Virus record (IMG/VR): IMGVR_UViG_3300021068_000001
Span: 1-64,000 of that record
Origin: a virus
DNA: 64,000 bases
Strand: one strand, 5' to 3'
A model generated the notes under the pieces. That model saw nothing but the letters and a program-made list of their open reading frames with translations. It ran no database searches and was not told the DNA's origin. Below, in pieces: positions 36,130-58,990 of the stretch; the stretch's first letter is position 1; every line of letters starts with the position of its first letter. Both the position numbers and the translations under genes were made by a program.

Positions 36130-36597
36130 ATGTTTGGCCTTAGATTATTTTTTATAGGAATAGTTGCTACCGCCATTGCTGGCGGTGGCTTCTATGTGAT
36201 GAAGTTGAGAAGTGATAATGCTATTTTGAAACTAAATCAAATCAAATTAGAATCAGCAGTCGCTGAACAACAACAACTCATAGAAAATCAACAGAAGGAC
36301 TTTGAAGAAATACTAGTCGCAAATCAAAAGATGAACGAGTTAGTAGGTGTTTTGAAAAAAGACCTTGATGATTTAGATAAAAGATTTAACAAAAAAAATA
36401 GAGATGTAGGCAAGCTTGCAATTTCAAAAACAAAAGCAATAGAACGAATTACAAACAATGGTTCTAAAAATGCTAATAGATGTATGGAAATAGCAAGTGG
36501 TGCTGAATTAACAGAAAAAGAAAAGAATGCTACAAAGAAGTCCGAAATTAATCCTGAATGTCCTAGTATCGCTAATCCTAATTACGTTCCTTACTAG
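36130..36597 (+). CDS. Inner-membrane spanin (Rz-like)
   Basis: This 155-residue protein has an N-terminal signal-anchor (LRLFFIGIVATAIAGGGFYVMKL), then a long periplasmic coiled coil (residues 28-90) and an acidic/proline C-terminus. This is the i-spanin pattern. The o-spanin gene starts inside its 3' end in another frame, as in Rz/Rz1. Spanins fuse inner and outer membranes at lysis. Confidence 0.75.
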   Translation: MFGLRLFFIGIVATAIAGGGFYVMKLRSDNAILKLNQIKLESAVAEQQQLIENQQKDFEEILVANQKMNELVGVLKKDLDDLDKRFNKKNRDVGKLAISKTKAIERITNNGSKNANRCMEIASGAELTEKEKNATKKSEINPECPSIANPNYVPY

Positions 36598-36919
36598 TTG
36601 CTCGGGTGTTAAAAAATTAAGTATCTTCAAAGAAGAGGTGCCTAGAGCACAACTTAATTTAGATAAACCTACGCCACTACAATTAGAACAATTACAATGG
36701 ATTATTATTACTAGTGAGAACGCTGAGGAAGTGTTCAAAAAACTAGAGGAAAAGGGTATAGACCCAGTATTATGGGGATTAACAGACAAAGACTTTGAAT
36801 TATTAGCAAAAAACTTCGCAAGAATTAGAAATCAAATGAAGATTACAAATGATTTACTAGATAAATATAAAGAGTATTACGAAGGAGAAGACGAGAAGAA
36901 AGAGGGAGACTCAAAGTAA
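36527..36919 (+). CDS. Outer-membrane spanin lipoprotein (Rz1-like)
   Basis: The gene begins within the Rz-like gene in the +1 frame. The first 24 residues form a lipoprotein signal ending L-T-S-C (C25). The mature part is 105 residues, longer than classical Rz1, with helices and an acidic tail. The embedded layout and lipobox support the o-spanin call. Confidence 0.72.
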   Translation: MLQRSPKLILNVLVSLILITFLTSCSGVKKLSIFKEEVPRAQLNLDKPTPLQLEQLQWIIITSENAEEVFKKLEEKGIDPVLWGLTDKDFELLAKNFARIRNQMKITNDLLDKYKEYYEGEDEKKEGDSK

Positions 36920-36985: not shown

Positions 36986-37435
36986 ATGGGTAGATTAAAT
37001 ATATCAAGTGAATCGGCAGTAAGTATGCCAATGAAAAACTTAATTGCTATTGTTGGAGCAGTAGCTATGGGAGTGTGGGCTTACTTCGGTGTGATTGAGC
37101 GATTGAACAAATTGGAAACTAATACAACACTATTAGAAAAAGATTTAATACAGACAGAGGAAGCGCTTACAACTGATATTGAACAGAATAACGAATTTAG
37201 GATTAAATGGCCAAGGGGAGATTTAGGTTCTCCACCTGCTGATTCAGAGCAATTTATGCTGATTGAATTTTTAAGTGGCCAGGTGGAATCTATACAGAAG
37301 CAACTTGAAGGAATGATGAACAATAAGGTTAACATTGAAAGGTTACAGACAGATATGGATAAAGCTTTAGAAGATATAGAAAAATTAAAGGACAAATTAA
37401 GAGAAGCCAAGAACGGCTATAACACAGGAGAATAA
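36986..37435 (+). CDS. Membrane-anchored coiled-coil protein, 149 aa
   Basis: A membrane span (AIVGAVAMGVWAYFGVI, about residues 20-38) is followed by two coiled-coil segments (IERLNKLETNTTLLEKDL and the C-terminal DMDKALEDIEKLKDKL) separated by a Pro/Gly-rich turn. It resembles conserved proteins near lysis genes in marine T4-like phages. The function is unknown. Confidence 0.55.
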   Translation: MGRLNISSESAVSMPMKNLIAIVGAVAMGVWAYFGVIERLNKLETNTTLLEKDLIQTEEALTTDIEQNNEFRIKWPRGDLGSPPADSEQFMLIEFLSGQVESIQKQLEGMMNNKVNIERLQTDMDKALEDIEKLKDKLREAKNGYNTGE

Positions 37436-37438
37436 CAT

Positions 37439-37741
37439 ATGGACGCAACAACTTTAGTCACTATAATAACAATGTTTGTTGTGACAAATACATCAAGCGA
37501 ATTTATAAAATATGATGGATTAATGGATTGTCTTAAAGACAAAAGAGCCATAGAAAAGAAAAAAGATGGTCGTAGAGCAATTTGTGGTCCATCCATGGCA
37601 GAAATTGACGCAGACGGTAACATTGTCAGTATTAAAAATAAAATGCCAGACCAATCAGGTAGTTTAAAACTTGGTGGTACAGCGAAGTCACTTACTGAAA
37701 AGAAAAAGAAGAAACAAACAGAAGTGTTAACACAGGATTAA
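37439..37741 (+). CDS. Small protein with hydrophobic N-terminus, 100 aa
   Basis: The N-terminus TTLVTIITMFVVT may be a signal or membrane segment. Two cysteines (C30, C49) could pair in the periplasm. The C-terminal 35 residues are lysine-rich. An ACAGGAG site precedes it. The function is unknown. Confidence 0.5.
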   Translation: MDATTLVTIITMFVVTNTSSEFIKYDGLMDCLKDKRAIEKKKDGRRAICGPSMAEIDADGNIVSIKNKMPDQSGSLKLGGTAKSLTEKKKKKQTEVLTQD

Positions 37742-37745
37742 TTAT

Positions 37746-38780
37746 ATGAAAAAATTATTAATGATATTATTTACAACTCTATTATTAGTAGGTTGTAATA
37801 CAAATAAAAGTATTAAAATAGAACAAGAAGTAGGTTTACTTCAAACTGTAAAAGAACGAGGTTATGTTGTATGTGGAGTTAATGCAGGCTTGCCTGGTTT
37901 CTCTGCTCAGGATGACGCAGGAAACTGGAGTGGTTTAGATGTTGACTTCTGTAAAGCAGTATCCGCTGGCATATTTGGAGATTCAAGTAAAGTAGAATTT
38001 GTAGGATTAAATGCTGCTCAAAGATTTCCAACATTAGCGTCTGGCAATATTGATGTACTTGCAAGAAACACAACTTGGACAATCAGTAGAGATGTGAACT
38101 TAATGTTTGAATTTGCAGGTGTTAATTATTATGATGGTCAAGGATTTTTAGTACCAACACATTTAGAGATTAGAAGTGCAACACAATTAGATGGTGCGTT
38201 TGTTTGTATTACAAAAGAAACTACAAGTGAATTAAATCTAAATGATTATTTTGCAGAAAATAATATGCAATATCAACCAATTTATGTTGAAGGTAATAAA
38301 GACGCAAAGGCAAAACTATTTGCTGGCGAGTGTGATGTATTTACTACAGACGCTTCTGGTTTAGCATCCGCAAGAGCAGGTGCAGAAGACCCTAGTAAAT
38401 GGGTAGTCTTACCAGAAATTATATCTAAAGAACCATTAGGTCCACTTGTAAGACAAGGCGACCAAGAGTGGGAAGATGTAATAAGATGGACACATTTCAT
38501 TATGATAAATGCTGAAGAGGCAGGTATTACTTCTGAAAATGTTGACTCAATGTTAGATAGTAAGAACAAAGAAGTTTTAAGAATTTTAGGTGAAGAAGGT
38601 TATATCGGTCCTATGTTAGGACTTGGTATGAAATTTGGTTATAATATTATCAAACAAGTTGGTAATTACGGAGAATCTTTTGAAAGAAACGTAGGACCAA
38701 AAACACCTCTTGCATTAGAAAGAGGACTAAATAAACTATGGAAGGATGGTGGCGTGATGTACGTACCACCAATCAGATAA
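37746..38780 (+). CDS. Periplasmic amino-acid-binding protein (AapJ/BztA-like) as a lipoprotein
   Basis: This 344-residue solute-binding protein of ABC-transporter cluster 3 type has TVKERGYVVCGVNAGLPGFSA, WSGLDVDFCKAVSAGIFGD, RFPTLASGNIDVLARNTTWTISRD, and a C-terminal AapJ-like LGLGMKFGYNIIKQVGNYGESFERNVG. The signal peptide ends L-V-G-C (C17), so the mature protein is probably lipid-anchored. AapJ proteins bind many L-amino acids. A phage copy may change amino-acid uptake late in infection. The transfer source is likely an alphaproteobacterium (inference). Confidence 0.88.
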   Translation: MKKLLMILFTTLLLVGCNTNKSIKIEQEVGLLQTVKERGYVVCGVNAGLPGFSAQDDAGNWSGLDVDFCKAVSAGIFGDSSKVEFVGLNAAQRFPTLASGNIDVLARNTTWTISRDVNLMFEFAGVNYYDGQGFLVPTHLEIRSATQLDGAFVCITKETTSELNLNDYFAENNMQYQPIYVEGNKDAKAKLFAGECDVFTTDASGLASARAGAEDPSKWVVLPEIISKEPLGPLVRQGDQEWEDVIRWTHFIMINAEEAGITSENVDSMLDSKNKEVLRILGEEGYIGPMLGLGMKFGYNIIKQVGNYGESFERNVGPKTPLALERGLNKLWKDGGVMYVPPIR

Positions 38781-38781
38781 T

Positions 38782-39252
38782 ATGTTTAAAAAAATTAAAG
38801 ACGCAATTAAATTTCACAATCCATGGGAAAAATGGGCTGTGATAATTTGTCTTGCTGTATTATTATGTGTTAGTTTTTCAGCTGCTAAAGCAGACTGCAC
38901 AGGTTGTGGAGATGATGGTCATCAACAATGTCCATTAGACGGCAATGAACATTCACACGCACCAAAACCCGAAGTAGTATTTGCTGTTTGTGTATTTGCA
39001 GATGGCTCATTGATAGACCATAAAGGTGCTAACTCAATGTCCGATTGCTTAAAGACTAAAAGAGAAGTTGAAAAGGCTTGGAGAAATAAATCAGAAGAAA
39101 CAGATAGTGTTGAAATAAATGGTATTACTTACAAGATTGATGGAGAAAGTTTAGCATTTATGTGTGATTTAGTGGATGCTCAAGTACATCATTATGAAGA
39201 TGGTACTTGGGAAATTATAGAAATTTTAGGTAAACATAAAAAGGACGAATAA
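38782..39252 (+). CDS. Exported Cys/His-containing protein, 156 aa
   Basis: A membrane/signal segment (WAVIICLAVLLCVSFSAAKA) ends at an A-K-A cleavage-like site. The mature part starts with CTGCGDDGHQQCPLDGNEHSHAP, a Cys/His-rich potential metal site, followed by a soluble domain. It starts 1 base after the binding-protein stop and may work with it. The function is unknown. Confidence 0.55.
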   Translation: MFKKIKDAIKFHNPWEKWAVIICLAVLLCVSFSAAKADCTGCGDDGHQQCPLDGNEHSHAPKPEVVFAVCVFADGSLIDHKGANSMSDCLKTKREVEKAWRNKSEETDSVEINGITYKIDGESLAFMCDLVDAQVHHYEDGTWEIIEILGKHKKDE

Positions 39253-40341: not shown

Positions 40342-40955
40342 TGAAAAAAAATATAATTAAAAAAGATAAAACTTTATTATTATTAATTGAGTTTGAAGGC
40401 GTTCCAGAAGCACAAGCCGACAATCTACTTGATGAGATTAGGTATAGTTATCTAAAAAGATTACTATTTGAGCACCCAGCAACTTCTTTACTTATTCTAT
40501 CAGACCACCGAAGAGCAAATACTAGAATAGCCGCAATATTAGATCATTTACAAGATAGTAGAAGAACACATACACATTCCATTGTGAATATTACACCAAT
40601 CAAAACAACAATGGAAGATATCTACTCTATAGCAGATGTCCAAGGTTATAATATTCAGAATGTTATTGTAGCAGGTTGTAATACAACAGGTTGTGTCTTT
40701 GAATCTATGCCTTATTCAGCAGTAAAATGGGCTCAAGCAGGCCATTTTGTACAGATAGTATTACCAATGTGTGGTGACGCTGACATACACGGTATAGGTC
40801 CTGAAAAATATATAAGATCATTTGCTCGTTTATATAAAAAAATTAAAAAGGCTAATGTTTTTAAAAATGTTGAAATAGTAAGTGAACTTCATACTGTGTT
40901 GCATTTTAATAATGGTGTGCAATCTAACAGATTTGATATAGAACCTAAAATTTAA
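40341..40955 (+). CDS. Isochorismatase/nicotinamidase-like protein
   Basis: The chosen ATG (40341) directly follows the small peptide; an upstream in-frame ATG at 40317 lies inside that peptide. The 204-residue protein has TLLLLIEFEG, matching the family's first strand (usually L-L-V-I-D, here Glu for Asp). VIVAGCNTTGCVFESMPYSAV-type sequence matches the nucleophile region, with C118. Family members hydrolyse nicotinamide, isochorismate or ureido compounds. The Asp-to-Glu change may alter activity. It ends 11 bases inside the convergent cyclase gene. Confidence 0.5.
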   Translation: MKKNIIKKDKTLLLLIEFEGVPEAQADNLLDEIRYSYLKRLLFEHPATSLLILSDHRRANTRIAAILDHLQDSRRTHTHSIVNITPIKTTMEDIYSIADVQGYNIQNVIVAGCNTTGCVFESMPYSAVKWAQAGHFVQIVLPMCGDADIHGIGPEKYIRSFARLYKKIKKANVFKNVEIVSELHTVLHFNNGVQSNRFDIEPKI

Positions 40956-42582
40956 TAGTATAGACGTTTATAGGTTCTTCTTTACCTTTTACTTTAATCT
41001 CATCAATATATTTAAAATTAAATCTTTCAAATAAAGGTTCTCTAGTATTTTCAGATATAACAATATCTTGTCCTAAAGTTTTACTTGAACTTTCCAATCT
41101 ACTTGCTAAATTAACAGCGTCTCCTATTACTGAATAATCAAACCTTTGTTCAGACCCCATATTACCTACAAGACATTGACCAGTATTGATACCTATACCT
41201 ATGTTTAAAGGTGGATCAAACTCTTTAGTTTTATTCATTAATGCTAGTTTTTGTTTCATCTCTTTAGCAGATTTAACTGCCATCTCTCTATGATTTTTAC
41301 AATCTAATGGTGCGTTCCAAAATGCCATAATACAATCACCCATATACTTGTCTATTGTCCCTTCATTTTTTAATATAATATTTGTCATTGCAGTTAGAAA
41401 CTTATTAACATAACGAGTAAGTTGTTCAGGATTATCTTTAAACCTTTCCGATATAGGAGTAAAACCTCTAATATCTGAAAATAAAAATGTTAATTCTTTT
41501 CTTTCCCCACCTAGTTTTAATAGAGAAGGATCTTTTTGTAATTTTTTAACCATACCAGGTGCAAGGTAATGCTCAAATTGTTTTTTGATTTGTAGTTTTA
41601 ATCTATTCTCTCTAGCAAAATTATTATAGATTAAATGAGACCATATAATACTTCCTATAATCATAGGAGTTATCCAATCAACCATTATCATATGTTGAGT
41701 CCATAGATAACCACTTGCAAGTGCTATATCAAAATAGAAACCTACTAAACATAATGCAGACCATAGTAATCCTAATCTAGGCATTATAATCAAAAGGAAT
41801 AATAAAGCAATTATAGTTATTCCTATTTCACTTATATACAACCAATTAGGTCTTGTAATAAACTTACCAGACAATAAAGTTTCTGTTGACAATGCCATTA
41901 TTTCGTGTGTGTTTTTTAAACCGTTTGGAGTAAGAACGAAAGTAGAACCTTTAAAGGTTGTTCCAATAAAAACTATTTTACCCTTCATAGATGACCAATC
42001 TTTATCAGTATAATCTATTCTAGGTATCTGGTGTCTGAAATCAATCCAAATATCGTCTTGGTTAGGTATTGGAAATTTAATGACTTTCAGTATAACACTT
42101 GGGACGGATTTGTCAAGCGGTAATTTTCTAATAGTACCATCAATATCAATAGGCACTTCTACATTTCCTACAGCAAGTGCTTTTCTCTCTATACTTTTTA
42201 GGTTTTTTGCTTGACTTGTTTCAGTTAATATGATAGGGTACTTGGTAATCATCTTCAAAAACATTTCATCACCACCTAATCTATCTTTATGTACAAAGAC
42301 TACATTTAAGAAGACTAGAGCTGCACCATTTTTATATGCGTTGATTATAGTACGACCTAATAAATCTCTTTTCCAAGGCCATTGACCAGATTTAACTAAA
42401 GCTTCATCCGAAATATCCAGGAGTACTAGACTTTTGGATTCGTAGTTATTCCCAAAATTTTGATAATTATCTAAAGCAGAAAGTCTTGTTTTTTGTATCA
42501 ATACAGGATTAGAAATATAGATTATAATCAATATTAAAGCAATCATCCATACAGACCATTTATTAGTTAGCAGTTTTATCAT
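40945..42582 (-). CDS. CHASE2-domain class III adenylate cyclase
   Basis: This 545-residue protein is the only minus-strand gene in the window. An N-terminal span (WMIALILIIIYISNPVLI) is followed by a periplasmic CHASE2 sensor (LVLLDISDEALVKSGQWPWKRDLLGR). Three further spans (about residues 245-325) and a cytosolic class III cyclase follow. The catalytic domain has FSDIRGFT (metal Asp, about 369), KYMGDCIMAFWNAP (second metal Asp; K for adenine) and DYSVIGDAVNLASRLE (D, N and R), so all key residues for ATP-to-cAMP conversion appear present. Its start is 58 bases from the divergent curli operon. Likely acquired from a bacterium; the signal sensed is unknown. Confidence 0.9.
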   Translation of the reverse strand: MIKLLTNKWSVWMIALILIIIYISNPVLIQKTRLSALDNYQNFGNNYESKSLVLLDISDEALVKSGQWPWKRDLLGRTIINAYKNGAALVFLNVVFVHKDRLGGDEMFLKMITKYPIILTETSQAKNLKSIERKALAVGNVEVPIDIDGTIRKLPLDKSVPSVILKVIKFPIPNQDDIWIDFRHQIPRIDYTDKDWSSMKGKIVFIGTTFKGSTFVLTPNGLKNTHEIMALSTETLLSGKFITRPNWLYISEIGITIIALLFLLIIMPRLGLLWSALCLVGFYFDIALASGYLWTQHMIMVDWITPMIIGSIIWSHLIYNNFARENRLKLQIKKQFEHYLAPGMVKKLQKDPSLLKLGGERKELTFLFSDIRGFTPISERFKDNPEQLTRYVNKFLTAMTNIILKNEGTIDKYMGDCIMAFWNAPLDCKNHREMAVKSAKEMKQKLALMNKTKEFDPPLNIGIGINTGQCLVGNMGSEQRFDYSVIGDAVNLASRLESSSKTLGQDIVISENTREPLFERFNFKYIDEIKVKGKEEPINVYTIKF

Positions 42583-42610: not shown

Positions 42611-42618
42611 TATAAATA
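42611..42618 (+). promoter_or_regulatory. T4-type late promoter of the curli operon
   Basis: An exact TATAAATA lies 22 bases before ATG 42641. The leader contains a GGGGAG ribosome site. It sits in the 58-base divergent gap with the cyclase gene. Confidence 0.7.
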
Positions 42619-43105: not shown

Positions 43106-44142
43106 TGTTAAGAGCAATAGGAATATTTTTATTAACATTGTTGTTAGTTAGTTGTGCTGGAAGACCTGATTTTGATGTACGAACCCAACCTGTACAATAT
43201 AAAGATTTAACTGAAATCAAATCACCAAAAGGCGATCCAATAGTGATTGCAGTTTATGATTTCCTAGATATGACAGGACAAAAGAAACCAGGTGGTAACT
43301 TTGCCTCAATGAGTACAGCGGTTACTCAAGGATCATATCAGTTATTAATTAAAGCATTACAGGATGCAGGTGATGGTAATTGGTTTAAAGTAGTAGAAAG
43401 AACAAGTCTCCCAAGTCTATTACAAGAAAGAAAACTAATTAGGTCTACAAGACAACAAGTTAATGGAGAAGGTGCAGAACCTTTACCACCATTATTATTT
43501 GCAGGTGCATATATCACAGGTGGTATAGTAGGTTACGATTCAGATATTAAATCTGGTGGTGTTGGTGCTAGAATTTTAGGCATACAAGCACATAAACAAT
43601 GGCGACAAGATGTAGTTACTGTTATATTAAGACTAGTTAATGTACAAACTGGTGAAGTAGTTGTATCAATTACTGTTGAGAAAACTATAATTTCAGGTGA
43701 AACTGGTGGCGATATATTTAAATATTTAGATACTGATACAATGTTATTAGAAGTTGAAGCTGGTGTTGCTAGAAATGAACCTGTTACTTATGCAGTAAGA
43801 AAAGCAATTGAAAAAGGTGTAGTAGAATTAATTAATGAAGGTGCTAAAAAAGATTTATGGGAATTTGATATACCAGTTGTAGAAATTACTGAAAAAAAAG
43901 TAATAGATTATACAAATAATACTGAAATAGGTGTACACGTTGATATGGGAGTGGTAAAAGAGGAAAAGACTTACGAAGAATACCTTGAAGAAAAGAAATT
44001 AAAAGAAGAAAACGAAGTAGCAGACGAGAAATTAAAAACAGAAGCTGCTGAAGAAGAATGGAACCAAATAGATACAGACGAGGAGGAGCAAGATGAAAAA
44101 ACTGATAATGATTCTAGTGACTCTGGTAACCCTAACCAGTAA
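43105..44142 (+). CDS. csgG: Curli secretion pore CsgG-like lipoprotein
   Basis: The lipoprotein signal ends L-V-S-C (C17). The 345-residue protein has CsgG features: IVIAVYDFLDMTGQKK, WFKVVERTSLPSLLQERKLIR, LLFAGAYITGGIVGYDSD, and QDVVTVILRLVNVQTGEVV (transmembrane hairpin region). An acidic tail of about 60 residues (EEEWNQIDTDEEEQDEK) exceeds the bacterial protein. CsgG forms a nonameric outer-membrane channel. The curlin-like gene starts inside its 3' end. Confidence 0.9.
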   Translation: MLRAIGIFLLTLLLVSCAGRPDFDVRTQPVQYKDLTEIKSPKGDPIVIAVYDFLDMTGQKKPGGNFASMSTAVTQGSYQLLIKALQDAGDGNWFKVVERTSLPSLLQERKLIRSTRQQVNGEGAEPLPPLLFAGAYITGGIVGYDSDIKSGGVGARILGIQAHKQWRQDVVTVILRLVNVQTGEVVVSITVEKTIISGETGGDIFKYLDTDTMLLEVEAGVARNEPVTYAVRKAIEKGVVELINEGAKKDLWEFDIPVVEITEKKVIDYTNNTEIGVHVDMGVVKEEKTYEEYLEEKKLKEENEVADEKLKTEAAEEEWNQIDTDEEEQDEKTDNDSSDSGNPNQ

Positions 44143-45187
44143 TTGCTGGGCAGGTAATTCAGTTTGGATTCAGCAAGATAACCAAAACAGCAACAACTCT
44201 ATCTTTATAAAACAAGATGGTACAGGCAACACGGTTGGTTATAGCACATCATATCCATTTAAAATAGATGGAGAGAACATCACCATCATCATTAAACAAA
44301 TAGGCGACAATAATAAAACTGATTGGTCAAATCATAACTCTTTTAAAGGTGATGATATGACTTTTGATTATACAGCAACTGGTGATTCTAATACATTGAG
44401 ACCAGATATTGATGATACAGGTGCTGATGGTCATTATTATGACATAGATATTACAGGTGATTCAAACAATGTAGATTTTGATACTTGGACGGCCGATGAT
44501 GTACAGAAAACTAATGTTGATTTAGATATTACAGGTGACTCAAATGTTTTTTGGGTGCGTAGTAGAGGTGATGGTCATTTCTGGTATGTTCTTATGTCTG
44601 GCGACTCAAATAATGTACAAATTTATACCACAGCAGATTCAGTAGGATTTAATACAAACTCCAATAAGGCTATTGGTCCACAAACAACATCACACGGACA
44701 ATTTGCAGATAGTTCAGGTAGTGAAGGCGCAAGTGCCGACATTTATATTATTGGTAATTCCAATACACTACACACTTCATCATACGGTACAGGCAATTAT
44801 CAACTACACGATATTATAGGTAATGATAATCTTTTAGATATTCATTCTAGTTATACTAGTGCCGATAGCGACCCATATGGAGATACAATGACGATATTAG
44901 GTGATAGCAATTGGTTAAGAACAATAATAAATGGTGATGATAACACAATAAGATTACATATGGCAGGTGGAAATAATACTGCTAGAATTTTCCTTTATAC
45001 AGATGATTCAGTAATAAACTTTGCTCAAGTGGGTGGTGGTAATACTGGTAAGGTAACTATCACAGGTGATTCAATTTACGATTACACATTAAACTTTTCA
45101 CAAGACGGTTCAGATAATTGTACATACTCATATAATAGAAATAATCAAACAGCAGACGTAACTGCTACAGTATCAAACGGTTGTTAA
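44093..45187 (+). CDS. Curlin-repeat (CsgA/B-like) secreted protein
   Basis: A signal peptide (MKKLIMILVTLVTLTSNCWA) precedes about 340 residues rich in G-D-S-N-x-x repeats. WIQQDNQNSNNSIFIKQDGTGN at the start fits the curlin repeat (S-x-N-x-x-x-x-x-Q-x-G-x-x-N), and TGDSNxx units recur through the protein. It is longer and more Asp-rich than CsgA (about 130 mature residues). A beta-solenoid or amyloid fibre exported through CsgG is inferred. It overlaps csgG by 50 bases. Confidence 0.75.
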   Translation: MKKLIMILVTLVTLTSNCWAGNSVWIQQDNQNSNNSIFIKQDGTGNTVGYSTSYPFKIDGENITIIIKQIGDNNKTDWSNHNSFKGDDMTFDYTATGDSNTLRPDIDDTGADGHYYDIDITGDSNNVDFDTWTADDVQKTNVDLDITGDSNVFWVRSRGDGHFWYVLMSGDSNNVQIYTTADSVGFNTNSNKAIGPQTTSHGQFADSSGSEGASADIYIIGNSNTLHTSSYGTGNYQLHDIIGNDNLLDIHSSYTSADSDPYGDTMTILGDSNWLRTIINGDDNTIRLHMAGGNNTARIFLYTDDSVINFAQVGGGNTGKVTITGDSIYDYTLNFSQDGSDNCTYSYNRNNQTADVTATVSNGC

Positions 45188-45188
45188 A

Positions 45189-47345
45189 ATGAAGAAGTTA
45201 TTTTTATTAGTATCAATCTTGGTACTTTTATGTACTAGTCTTTCCTCAGCACAAATAACAGGACCTAAAGTAGGTACTGTATCAGGCCAAATGGGTACTA
45301 CTTGGAATGAGCGTGATGGTCAAACTGAAAATACAGCAATGGGTTATGAGTTGCAGATGAACGACTTTCTCCAAACTGGAGAAGATGGTGGTATGATTTT
45401 ATCTTACGTTGATGATACTAAATTTACAATGGGACCAAATACAGAATTAGTTATTGATGAATTTGCTTTTGATACTTCTTCTGTACCAATTGAAATTGCA
45501 ATGAACATATCAGTTAATGTAGGTTCATTTACATATGAATCAGGTCAAGTATCCAATTTAGGTGGTGAAGTTAATATCAATGCTGGATTCGCTACAGTTA
45601 CAGTACAAGGTACTGCCTTTTCAGGAACAGTTGACACTAGTGGTGAGGTTACAATTACCTTACTACCAGATAGTGATGGTGATATAGGGTCTGTAACGGT
45701 CTCTAATGACGCAGGTTCTCAAACCATAACTAACGCATACAATTCAGTAACAGTTGTGTCAAACGACCTGACACCAACTCCTCCAAAGATAGAAACTAAT
45801 AAATCAGACATTATTGAGTTAGAAGAATTTGAAGAAGATATAAAAGATGAATCAACAAAAACTTTTGGTGATGTAGATAAAAAATCTGAATTGTCTAAAG
45901 ACGAACAAGAAGCTCAGGAAATGGAAGAGGCGATAATAAATGAAGAGGCAAGTATTGTAGAAAATAGTGATACAATTGTTGCTACAGATTTATCTGCTAG
46001 TGAAGCAGATACAATGATTGAAACAAAATCAGTAGAAGAAAATACTTTAGTTGAAGTAGATGAAGTTGATACATCTTACTATGATGAATGGGAAGATGAT
46101 TTAAAAGATTGGGGTTATATAGATGAAGACAACCAGATTTCAGTTTGGGATGCCGAAGGTGAAAAAACTATGGATTGGGATGACGCAAAGAAAATGTATG
46201 CTGAAATGGACCAAGCATACTTTGACGCTATTGGTTGTTCAGATTGTACCTGGGATACTATTGATTGGGATACTATTGATTGGGACGCTGTAGATTGGGA
46301 CGAATATTCGGACAAATATAATGAACTATTAGAAGACTATGGTTTAACTTCTTGGAATGTTGATGTAGATGAACAAGATGTTGTTGAAGATACAAAAGAT
46401 GAAACAGAAGCAACTGTTGTTGAAGGATATACTTGGGAAGATTTTGCTTTAGATGATGACTATTATAATAATAATGAATACAAAAACGCAGGTGGTCCTC
46501 CGACATTAACAGTACAAAACTATTGTGAGTACAATGGCTATGATGATTACTGGTGTAACCAAGATTATGTTGATTATCTAAATGACTGGTACAAAGATGA
46601 TTGGACTTTAAAAGTAACCAATGATAGTTGGACTAAAGAATCTAAAAAGATATTTGGTAAACTATATGGTTGGTGTGGAAGTTGGCCAAACTATAAAATG
46701 TGTGATGACCAGCCTAAACCTTGGAAGATGAAAGACTTAAAGAAGACTTATATAACTAATTGGAGTTGGGACGATTGGGACATATATTGGGACGCATTAT
46801 ACGATTGGTGGTGGACAGGTTACGATTATAATAATGAAGATGATGAGAGTAATTGGGAAGATGAATATTCTTATGAAGATGACTATGATATAGACGCAGA
46901 ATTGGAAATATTATTAGCAAGTTATGATGAGGAAGATTGTTTAAATTATGGATACTATTGGGACAATGCAAATCAATCCTGTGGTACAGAATGGGTTGAC
47001 AATAGTGGTTCAGAAACACAGGTAACTGCTAGTGGTGAAACTTTAAATTATACTACTGGAGATGTAACTCAAACTTTAACTACAACAAGTGGTGGTGTGT
47101 CAACAAGTACCACTTCAACAGGAAGAGTTTCAACGTTAGATAACGACTTTAACGCAACAGCTTCAACCTCTGGTGATTACACAATCATAAATAGATATAA
47201 CGACAATCATAGGGCTTATATTAAGGTTGAAACTTCCAAGACAGCTGATATTCAAATTTTACAAGATTCAGAAGCACAGAATATAGATGTTGGCGATATT
47301 ATACCTCCTGGATACCCATACATAACAATAATACAGACGGACTAA
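45189..47345 (+). CDS. FecR-domain exported protein with Trp/Asp/Tyr-rich region
   Basis: A signal peptide (FLLVSILVLLCTSLSSAQ) precedes a FecR-like domain (about residues 35-190: GTVSGQMGTTWNERDG, LQTGEDGGMILSYVDDTKFTMGPNTELVIDEF). Residues about 215-295 are acidic. Residues about 295-600 are remarkably rich in W, D, Y and E, with repeated D-W-D units (DWDTIDWDTIDWDAVDWD). A Ser/Thr-rich beta C-terminus follows. It is the last gene of the curli block. I infer an extracellular partner or an adhesive matrix protein. Confidence 0.68.
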   Translation: MKKLFLLVSILVLLCTSLSSAQITGPKVGTVSGQMGTTWNERDGQTENTAMGYELQMNDFLQTGEDGGMILSYVDDTKFTMGPNTELVIDEFAFDTSSVPIEIAMNISVNVGSFTYESGQVSNLGGEVNINAGFATVTVQGTAFSGTVDTSGEVTITLLPDSDGDIGSVTVSNDAGSQTITNAYNSVTVVSNDLTPTPPKIETNKSDIIELEEFEEDIKDESTKTFGDVDKKSELSKDEQEAQEMEEAIINEEASIVENSDTIVATDLSASEADTMIETKSVEENTLVEVDEVDTSYYDEWEDDLKDWGYIDEDNQISVWDAEGEKTMDWDDAKKMYAEMDQAYFDAIGCSDCTWDTIDWDTIDWDAVDWDEYSDKYNELLEDYGLTSWNVDVDEQDVVEDTKDETEATVVEGYTWEDFALDDDYYNNNEYKNAGGPPTLTVQNYCEYNGYDDYWCNQDYVDYLNDWYKDDWTLKVTNDSWTKESKKIFGKLYGWCGSWPNYKMCDDQPKPWKMKDLKKTYITNWSWDDWDIYWDALYDWWWTGYDYNNEDDESNWEDEYSYEDDYDIDAELEILLASYDEEDCLNYGYYWDNANQSCGTEWVDNSGSETQVTASGETLNYTTGDVTQTLTTTSGGVSTSTTSTGRVSTLDNDFNATASTSGDYTIINRYNDNHRAYIKVETSKTADIQILQDSEAQNIDVGDIIPPGYPYITIIQTD

Positions 47346-56493: not shown

Positions 56494-56886
56494 ATGGTAA
56501 CTAAAGAAGAAATATTTGAAGAATTTAAGATTGCAAAACAAAAAGACATTGCAAAATCAACAACAAAACCACCTTATGAGAACTGTTTTAAAAACAGATT
56601 AAAGTTATTAAAATCTCATAGGGACGCAAAAATAACAAATCCAAAAGTGTACAGACATTTACAAGTAAATTTTGATAATCTAATACTTGCTTATTCGTCA
56701 CCTGTACCTATTGACGCATTCTATAAGACAGTATTCAATAAGACATTTACTCAATATAATGAGTCTAAAAGAGTTGAAGATATGACAGAATTACAAAAAG
56801 AAAAAGATGAAAGACGTAGAAAAAAAGAAAAAGAAGAATTAAAGAAACAAAAAGCTGAAGATGTTAAAGAAATTACTATTAATTAG
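56494..56886 (+). CDS. Unidentified early protein with basic coil, 130 aa
   Basis: The start at 56494 is chosen because GAGAAGGA lies 8 bases before it; an in-frame ATG at 56467 is near the promoter start and would add 9 residues. The N-terminal part has TKEEIFEEFKIAKQKDIAK and YENCFKNRLKLLKSHRDAK; the C-terminal 35 residues form a K/E-rich coil. The function is unknown. Confidence 0.55.
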   Translation: MVTKEEIFEEFKIAKQKDIAKSTTKPPYENCFKNRLKLLKSHRDAKITNPKVYRHLQVNFDNLILAYSSPVPIDAFYKTVFNKTFTQYNESKRVEDMTELQKEKDERRRKKEKEELKKQKAEDVKEITIN

Positions 56887-57352
56887 TTGTTTGTTGTTAC
56901 TTACAAATTGTGCCAGTAAGCAGTCTTATATAGGTGCTAGCACCACCGCAGCTGTTGCTGGTACAGCGTGTTGGCAGTATATAAGTGACAATCCTGCAGT
57001 TGTGGCGACTTGTGCTGTTGTAGGTTCATTTAAAGGTGCCGATATGATGAATAGTGAAACGGATGATCAATTAATGACAAGAGCATTTGTGGATCATTTA
57101 GACAATGCACCTAATAGTCCAGGTTTTACAACGTGGATGAATCCTAAAACAAATAGTAATGGTATAATTAAAACTACAGGTTTCTATTTAAAGGGACCTA
57201 TTAAATGTTCAATGGTTGAAGTTACACATAATCAGAATTTAGATAATACAAGATTTTTTGATTCAATATTATATGGAAATCCATATAGACAAATACAATT
57301 ACACGAAGTTTGTAAAATGCCCGATGGAAGGTGGATGATGATAAATGATTAA
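56861..57352 (+). CDS. Lipoprotein, 163 aa
   Basis: The signal ends L-T-N-C (C17). The mature part starts with a Gly/Ala-rich segment (YIGASTTAAVAGTACWQYI) like glycine-zipper surface antigens, followed by a soluble domain with QLMTRAFVDHLDNAP and CKMPDGRWMMIND. It overlaps the upstream gene by 26 bases. An outer-membrane role is likely. Confidence 0.7.
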   Translation: MLKKLLLISCLLLLTNCASKQSYIGASTTAAVAGTACWQYISDNPAVVATCAVVGSFKGADMMNSETDDQLMTRAFVDHLDNAPNSPGFTTWMNPKTNSNGIIKTTGFYLKGPIKCSMVEVTHNQNLDNTRFFDSILYGNPYRQIQLHEVCKMPDGRWMMIND

Positions 57353-57806
57353 AAATATTATAATTTTTGTACTGTTATTAATTTGTGTATCACAATGTGG
57401 TGGTAACGATACGAAAGCAAAACAAATAGAATTAAAAGCAATGGATAACTTTTTTGATAAACTATTGCAAAATGCAACACCAATACCTTTAGTAGATAAA
57501 CAATGTTTGAAATATGAAGATTGTCCTAAATGGGATGGTAATCCAGATACTAAAATGTATTATGACCTAATGAAAGGTCTTAACGGCTCTGGGAAGATTG
57601 AAAAATCAGACTTCAATTGGAATGTTCATCTATATCTATGCCACCAAAATAAGTTGTTGGATAGTATAAACGGTGAAGGTGCATTTGAAAGACTTGCAAT
57701 CATTTCAGCAAAAGACGGAATGATACCTTGTCCTATAGATAACAATCCACATTGGAATTATGATTGGGAAAATCATATATTAAAAGCTAGAGCGGAGGCA
57801 GTATGA
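57345..57806 (+). CDS. Lipoprotein, 153 aa
   Basis: The signal (IIIFVLLLICVSQC) has a lipobox-like V-S-Q-C (C18). The mature part has CLKYEDCPKWDG and NVHLYLCHQNK, offering disulfide cysteines. The gene overlaps both neighbours. The function is unknown. Confidence 0.65.
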   Translation: MIKNIIIFVLLLICVSQCGGNDTKAKQIELKAMDNFFDKLLQNATPIPLVDKQCLKYEDCPKWDGNPDTKMYYDLMKGLNGSGKIEKSDFNWNVHLYLCHQNKLLDSINGEGAFERLAIISAKDGMIPCPIDNNPHWNYDWENHILKARAEAV

Positions 57807-58228: not shown

Positions 58229-58389
58229 TGATAAAAGGTATAATAACCCTAGTAGTACTATGGATAATCATAGCTTTTACTTGGGATCCATTTGTATCAA
58301 CAGTTGAGAAAACACAGGCTGTTGACAAAACTAAGGAATTAGTGTATAATGTGTTTAATAAAGCGAAGGAGAAAGTGAAAAATGAGTAA
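58228..58389 (+). CDS. Small membrane protein, 53 aa
   Basis: The ATG at 58228 overlaps the previous stop by 1 base; an upstream in-frame ATG at 58189 lies inside the previous gene. Residues 2-20 form a membrane span (IKGIITLVVLWIIIAFTW), followed by a charged helix. The function is unknown. Confidence 0.5.
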   Translation: MIKGIITLVVLWIIIAFTWDPFVSTVEKTQAVDKTKELVYNVFNKAKEKVKNE

Positions 58390-58990
58390 AGTACTCAAAT
58401 ATATAATAATTGGTTTATTAAGTGTCACGCTTGCAAATTGTTCAAGCAATACTTATAAAATCAAAAAAGAAAGCAAGAATCAGGTACTAAAAGTTCCTTC
58501 TTGGTATATGAAAGACTATTCCGAGAATAAAGAATGTGGTACTAAAATGTTCGGCAAAAAGAAAGACAAAAAATGTGTCTTCGGTGTCGGAACTTCTACA
58601 TCACCTGACCTAGAATTGGCAATTGACAAGGCGACAATGATCGCTAAGGCTGAAGTTGCTGATAAGATAAAAGGGGAGATGAATAAGAAGGCAAAGATTT
58701 TTACTACCGAGTTAGGTAAATCTCAAACCAAAACTGTTGTAACAGATGTTGAAACAACTATAGTAAACATTATTAAGAATACACCAGTACGTGGTTATGA
58801 AGTATTTAAGCAAGAGGTAACTTTAACGAAAAATGGTTACTACCGTGCTTGGATAGGATTAAGATTGCCTATGGGACCATACAACAAGATGTACAATTAT
58901 TCTTTAGAAGAAATAGTTGACGCTTACAAGTTAAAAGAACTTGCTGAAAAATCGTATGATGAAGTAGAGATAATTGCTAATGAGCAGTAA
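58382..58990 (+). CDS. LPP20-family lipoprotein
   Basis: The signal ends L-A-N-C (C20). The mature protein has VPSWYMKDY, KKCVFGVGTSTSPDLELAIDKATMIAKAEVADKI and a C-terminal YYRAWIGLRLPMG, matching the LPP20/LPP20-like family of outer-membrane lipoproteins. It is the third lipoprotein in the 56.8-59 kb run. A role in envelope change or superinfection exclusion is possible. Confidence 0.78.
   Translation: MSKVLKYIIIGLLSVTLANCSSNTYKIKKESKNQVLKVPSWYMKDYSENKECGTKMFGKKKDKKCVFGVGTSTSPDLELAIDKATMIAKAEVADKIKGEMNKKAKIFTTELGKSQTKTVVTDVETTIVNIIKNTPVRGYEVFKQEVTLTKNGYYRAWIGLRLPMGPYNKMYNYSLEEIVDAYKLKELAEKSYDEVEIIANEQ

Follow-up and report, generated by a model that had tools for sequence, protein, structure and literature searches.

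A T4-like virus record was found to carry a gene for a full-length solute-binding protein (SBP) of the AapJ/BztA type, which lies in a conserved four-gene cassette. We propose that it is an auxiliary uptake gene feeding the AapQMP permease of the host, a reading in which our confidence is modest, a little above even. The analysis centred on a window of 64,000 nucleotides from this record (G000; 170,818 bases, 170.8 kb), and positions are counted from the first letter of the window. The features are collected in Table 1.

Table 1. Coordinates of the SBP, its cassette and associated features.
Feature	Position	Strand	Basis
Rz-like inner-membrane spanin, neighbour outside the cassette	36130..36597	+	PHROG 739, E 7e-9
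Rz1-like outer-membrane spanin lipoprotein, neighbour outside the cassette	36527..36919	+	PHROG 812, E 9e-7
g36986, 149 aa, N-terminal hydrophobic segment and coiled coil; putative lysis-module protein by position only	36986..37435	+	PHROG 20984 (unknown function); beside the SBP module
g37439, 100 aa, hydrophobic N-terminus, CLKxKR...C motif	37439..37741	+	linkage to the SBP; dN/dS 0.07; alignment
AapJ-type amino-acid-binding protein (SBP)	37746..38780	+	PF00497; 4z9n by sequence and fold; phage clade adjoining SAR11 AapJ
Lipobox codons L14-V15-G16-C17 (predicted lipidation at Cys17)	37785..37796	+	sequence; same type in 47/65 full-length phage copies
g38782, 156 aa, probably secreted, CTGCG motif, conserved C-terminal domain with CLKxKR	38782..39252	+	linkage to the SBP; alignment
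Phage-borne TctA	G000:C1:124710-125915 (outside the window); L450; L059:9618-11054		

Identity of the SBP and its viral carriers

The SBP reading frame starts with ATG and encodes 344 amino acids. It matched the Pfam family SBP_bac_3 (PF00497) at an E value of 3e-13, better than the family cut-off. It also matched PDB entry 4z9n, a Brucella ovis amino-acid-binding protein whose structure was determined with glutathione bound, at an E value of 8.5e-107 over residues 31-344, a stretch that covers the entire mature protein with its long C-terminal extension. The structure model built from phage sequences only had a pLDDT of 42, and the model with bacterial relatives added had a pLDDT of 81, with residues 111-125, R115 among them, below 50. 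A fold search with the latter model ranked 4z9n first (TM 0.83/0.88). The SBP_bac_3 domain, a full-length match to AapJ and the C-terminal extension are all present, and the sequence comparisons confirm the product as a full-length AapJ/BztA-type SBP, as a first, sequence-only reading of the window had claimed. Among the phage proteins of the viral library, those closest in fold were periplasmic binding proteins of the Bug/TctC type (BFVD, uncultured Caudovirales), which belong to a separate SBP family and are distantly similar, with 10-14% identity.

In a quick tree of 128 proteins without bootstrap, the phage SBPs formed one clade (SH-aLRT 100) that was sister to SAR11 AapJ (SH-aLRT 94), a comparison that the sequence-only reading had proposed as a check. 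The stem branch of the phage clade was long, at 0.78 changes per site. The mean identity of the phage SBPs was 61% to SAR11 AapJ and 56% to other bacteria, and identity among the phage copies went down to 79%. Fold, length and clamp positions are common to the phage SBP and the AapJ/BztA proteins of Alphaproteobacteria (SAR11 AapJ; B. ovis 4z9n), whereas the phage proteins differ in being phage-borne without adjoining permease genes, in the lipobox of most copies and at nine positions conserved in bacteria.

The record also carries a T4-type Gp23 capsid gene, and genes for DNA polymerase B, a RecA-like protein and ribonucleotide reductase lie within the window. In IMG/VR, 93 viral contigs encode relatives of the SBP, 80 of which were kept (identity 77-100%); 208 further matches from a broad viral scan lie outside the set analysed. 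The gene and its flanks recur at 99-100% identity in L002 and L003, contigs of two further metagenome projects, and therefore the SBP is not an assembly accident. These copies, the 93 viral relatives and the capsid gene exclude the chimera or contamination at 37.7-38.8 kb that had been named as a possible flaw, and the viral location of the gene is right. The SBP gene is of a metabolic kind, derives from a host and lies in genuine viral genomes, and it is in this sense an auxiliary metabolic gene. Since no close relative of the SBP was found among 50,697 deposited phage records, its carriers appear to be uncultivated; deposited phages also had no close relatives of g37439 or g38782. The carrier records other than G000 and a 177-kb genome (L014) are mostly fragments. 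The carriers are large marine T4-like phages that probably infect SAR11.

The median pairwise dN/dS (NG86) was 0.19 for the SBP, 0.07 for g37439, 0.12 for g36986 and 0.20 for g38782, and the SBP frames were intact in the copies examined. The SBP is under purifying selection. A functionless passenger acquired from the host might be considered, given that the hosts possess the gene, but a passenger would give a dN/dS near 1 and broken copies. With a ratio of 0.19, intact frames, divergence down to 79% identity and retention in several genomic contexts, neutral carriage is scarcely credible. The median dS of the SBP was 0.55, about half that of the three other cassette genes (0.85-1.14), which may reflect recombination or gene conversion of the SBP.

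Ligand-binding site

The clamp positions were placed by alignment to Shigella DEBP, whose ligand contacts we take to correspond to R93, N108, T110, R115, T160 and D202 of the SBP. All six residues were identical in the 45 phage sequences of the tree, and only a single one of the bacterial sequences compared deviated from them; the loss of ligand-binding residues, against which the sequence-only reading had advised a check, was not seen. The AapJ-specific C-terminal residues G306, N307, Y308, E310, R326, W332, G335 and G336 were kept as well. Arg24 of DEBP, which presumably contacts the side-chain carboxylate of the ligand, is replaced by Asn in the phage SBPs and by Thr in SAR11, and therefore acidic amino acids need not be preferred.

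At nine positions conserved in bacteria, the phage SBPs have a different residue that is fixed or nearly so. Among the phage-fixed changes are G158E and T161S, which flank T159/T160, and P275K, all at positions invariant in the bacteria compared. Because the clamp is conserved and phage-fixed changes lie beside the pocket, ligand binding has likely been kept, and the specificity may have shifted. In the strongest form of such a shift, the AapJ fold would be kept for another solute (a peptide, glutathione or other), with a part in uptake or redox balance instead of amino-acid supply. The glutathione in the nearest solved structure, the pocket-side G158E and T161S and the stem branch of 0.78 would fit such a switch, but six out of six clamp positions are kept, and we consider it distinctly improbable.

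Signal sequence and lipobox

In the N-terminus of the SBP (MKKLLMILFTTLLLVGC-NTNKS), an n-region and a hydrophobic stretch are followed by the lipobox LVG|C17, which is the arrangement of a lipoprotein processed by signal peptidase II. The SBP is predicted to be lipidated at Cys17, and the lipobox stands where the sequence-only reading had located it. Lipoboxes of the types LVGC, LVSC, IVSC, LIGC and LTGC were present in 47 of the 65 full-length phage copies. The other copies, about a quarter, have a long hydrophobic N-terminal stretch with no Cys and include one well-defined subclade; two changes among the phages are needed to explain the distribution of the lipobox on the tree. SAR11 AapJ is soluble and has an ordinary AHA|G-type signal, unlike the SBP of the window. 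The earlier description of the protein as changed into a lipoprotein holds for this copy and for most phage copies, but not for the quarter without a lipobox. The lipobox is a localisation variant inside the AapJ/BztA family and does not mark a different family.

The residue following Cys17 is Asn. By E. coli rules, Asn after the lipidated Cys leads to sorting to the outer membrane, a rule that may not be that of SAR11. An abundant, lipid-anchored SBP in the periplasm or the outer membrane could block other phages by superinfection exclusion or receptor masking. Phage lipoproteins with exclusion roles exist, for example Llp of T5, and this copy combines a lipobox with a neighbourhood of late or envelope genes. 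However, the known exclusion lipoproteins are small and do not resemble SBPs, conservation focuses on the ligand clamp and about a quarter of the copies have no lipobox, so that we regard this role as very unlikely.

The four-gene cassette

The order g36986, g37439, SBP, g38782 was observed in nearly all loci with room for it, and the genes are mostly 0-10 nt apart. The cassette occurs in at least five T4-like contexts with different outer neighbours: the tail-tube region, the spanin/curli region (this window), the vicinity of a conserved 400-aa gene, the sheath-to-capsid region, and the terminase region followed by TctA. Every one of the 81 assessable g37439 loci also contained the SBP; these loci overlap those of the SBP scan. 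g38782 adjoined the SBP in 72 of its 79 assessable loci, and the remaining seven had g36986, a small gene and g38782 with no SBP. In five of these seven, tblastn detected no similarity between the small gene and g37439; in those five the small gene occupies the position of g37439 and mostly has a similar CLK/CMK motif by eye. Two loci without the SBP (L338 and L358) have both outer neighbours in common with one that contains it (L063). Given these shared neighbours and the seven contigs with the module minus the SBP, the SBP looks like a later addition, probably to an older pelagiphage module.

Among deposited phages, 45 records contain relatives of g36986, and 40 of these records are named Pelagibacter phages. 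One relative adjoins an M15 peptidase gene in HTVC027P. In HTVC121P another is found a short distance ahead of DNA maturase B and lysozyme, in an area that, as we infer, T7-like phages often use for lysis genes. Of 70 related loci, 11 had the T4-type late-promoter sequence NATAAATA in the 130 nt upstream of g36986 (background 4.6%) and none had TATAAATA (background 2.3%), which gives no firm indication of a late promoter for the cassette. By eye, the C-terminal domain of g38782 and the smaller g37439 have the CLKxKR...C motif in common. Some relatives of g38782 (L057, L060 and L338) contain a His-rich stretch, which could bind metal.

These observations bear on the main rival to uptake, an envelope or sensor role. 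As a repurposed envelope component, the SBP would act with its cassette partners in lysis or envelope remodelling, and its ligand might be a lysis-timing signal. The invariable linkage to g37439, the close spacing of the genes, the relatives of the cassette core beside M15 peptidase or near maturase B and lysozyme, the spanins upstream in the window and the phage-fixed changes next to the pocket all argue for such a role. However, a purely structural role would not need the clamp and the AapJ C-terminal residues, which are fully kept, and the occurrence of the module without the SBP indicates that the SBP is dispensable for its basic function. On balance we judge this alternative unlikely. A membrane-anchored ligand sensor in the cassette, through which external amino acids would influence the lysis or envelope state, seems to us decidedly improbable.

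Proposed role in amino-acid uptake

SAR11 has aapJQMP, and in one SAR11 locus (L109) the genes after aapJ encode two BPD_transp_1 permeases and an ABC ATPase. In the phage carriers the SBP is not encoded beside AapQMP. Neither G000 nor any of eight other carrier records, most of them fragments, yielded a BPD_transp_1 permease gene, and the one ABC_tran match in G000 was weak and below the cut-off. As the phage has no ABC permease of its own, use of the host permease is proposed. The SBP would be exported and, in most copies, lipid-anchored; in the periplasm it would capture an amino acid, or a small ligand resembling one, for delivery to the host AapQMP permease, and the supply of nitrogen and carbon would be sustained during phage DNA and protein synthesis. 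From the sequence evidence, boosted uptake by the SBP is plausible. Against it count the phage-fixed G158E and T161S on the pocket side and P275K, the outer-membrane sorting by the E. coli rule, which would put the SBP away from the permease, and the probable lysis genes that accompany the cassette in several of its contexts.

Uptake through the host permease is the simplest account and is modelled on the proposal for cyanophage PstS. This phosphate-binding protein (P-SSM2, Syn19) is likewise a phage-borne SBP proposed to aid uptake in the infected cell, but its solute, SBP family and hosts are different. SAR11 are among the most abundant bacteria of the ocean. If the uptake proposal is true, the large marine phages that probably infect them directly manage amino-acid capture during infection, and the phosphate precedent is extended to organic nitrogen and carbon. 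The cassette also points to two partners of the SBP, both strongly conserved and probably exported, and its genes are an entry to how phages rebuild the SAR11 envelope.

The carriers hold other transport genes too, since TctA, the membrane subunit of the tripartite tricarboxylate transporter, is present in G000, L014 and the contig L059. In L059 it directly follows the cassette; in G000 a 261-aa reading frame with a signal-like N-terminus comes after it. Marine T4-like SAR11 phages (pelagimyophages) with the curli genes CsgF/CsgG have been described (PMC7029224). That article describes freshwater pelagimyophages as having no substrate-transport genes, a phrase implying that the marine ones have some, and no protein of the ABC, solute-binding or periplasmic kind is mentioned in its main text. 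No published report of a phage-borne AapJ-type SBP was found in the literature, and phage-borne SBPs as such are known from cyanophage PstS.

Neighbouring genes in the window

The SBP had been described as lying beside lysis and envelope genes. Spanin-type genes do lie upstream and CsgF/CsgG downstream, but the unit that matters is the four-gene cassette, whose order is kept across contexts. A functional link between the SBP and curli was considered and is weak, CsgF/CsgG being present in only 7 of the 80 loci. A T4-type late-promoter-like site, TATAAATA, is located at 42611, 30 nt upstream of the CsgF start.

Right after CsgG, a secreted 364-aa reading frame (44093-45187, +) contains degenerate curlin-like repeats (IFIKQDGTGN, IIIKQIGDNN, INFAQVGGGN, LNFSQDGSDN and many GDSN). 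Its Pfam Curlin_rpt match had an E value of 0.012, below the cut-off, and the product is a candidate CsgA/B-like subunit; such a subunit was reported missing in pelagimyophages in PMC7029224. The next frame (45189-47345, +) encodes a secreted protein of 718 aa with no Pfam match, whose N-terminal part is FecR-like by eye and which always accompanies the curli genes in the loci seen. Three reading frames further downstream (56861-57352, 57345-57806 and 58382-58990, +) have lipoprotein-like N-termini and no Pfam match. A protein with CHASE2 and adenylate/guanylate cyclase domains is encoded at 40945-42582 (-), and relatives with the same architecture are present in other loci, for example at L364:2834-4897.
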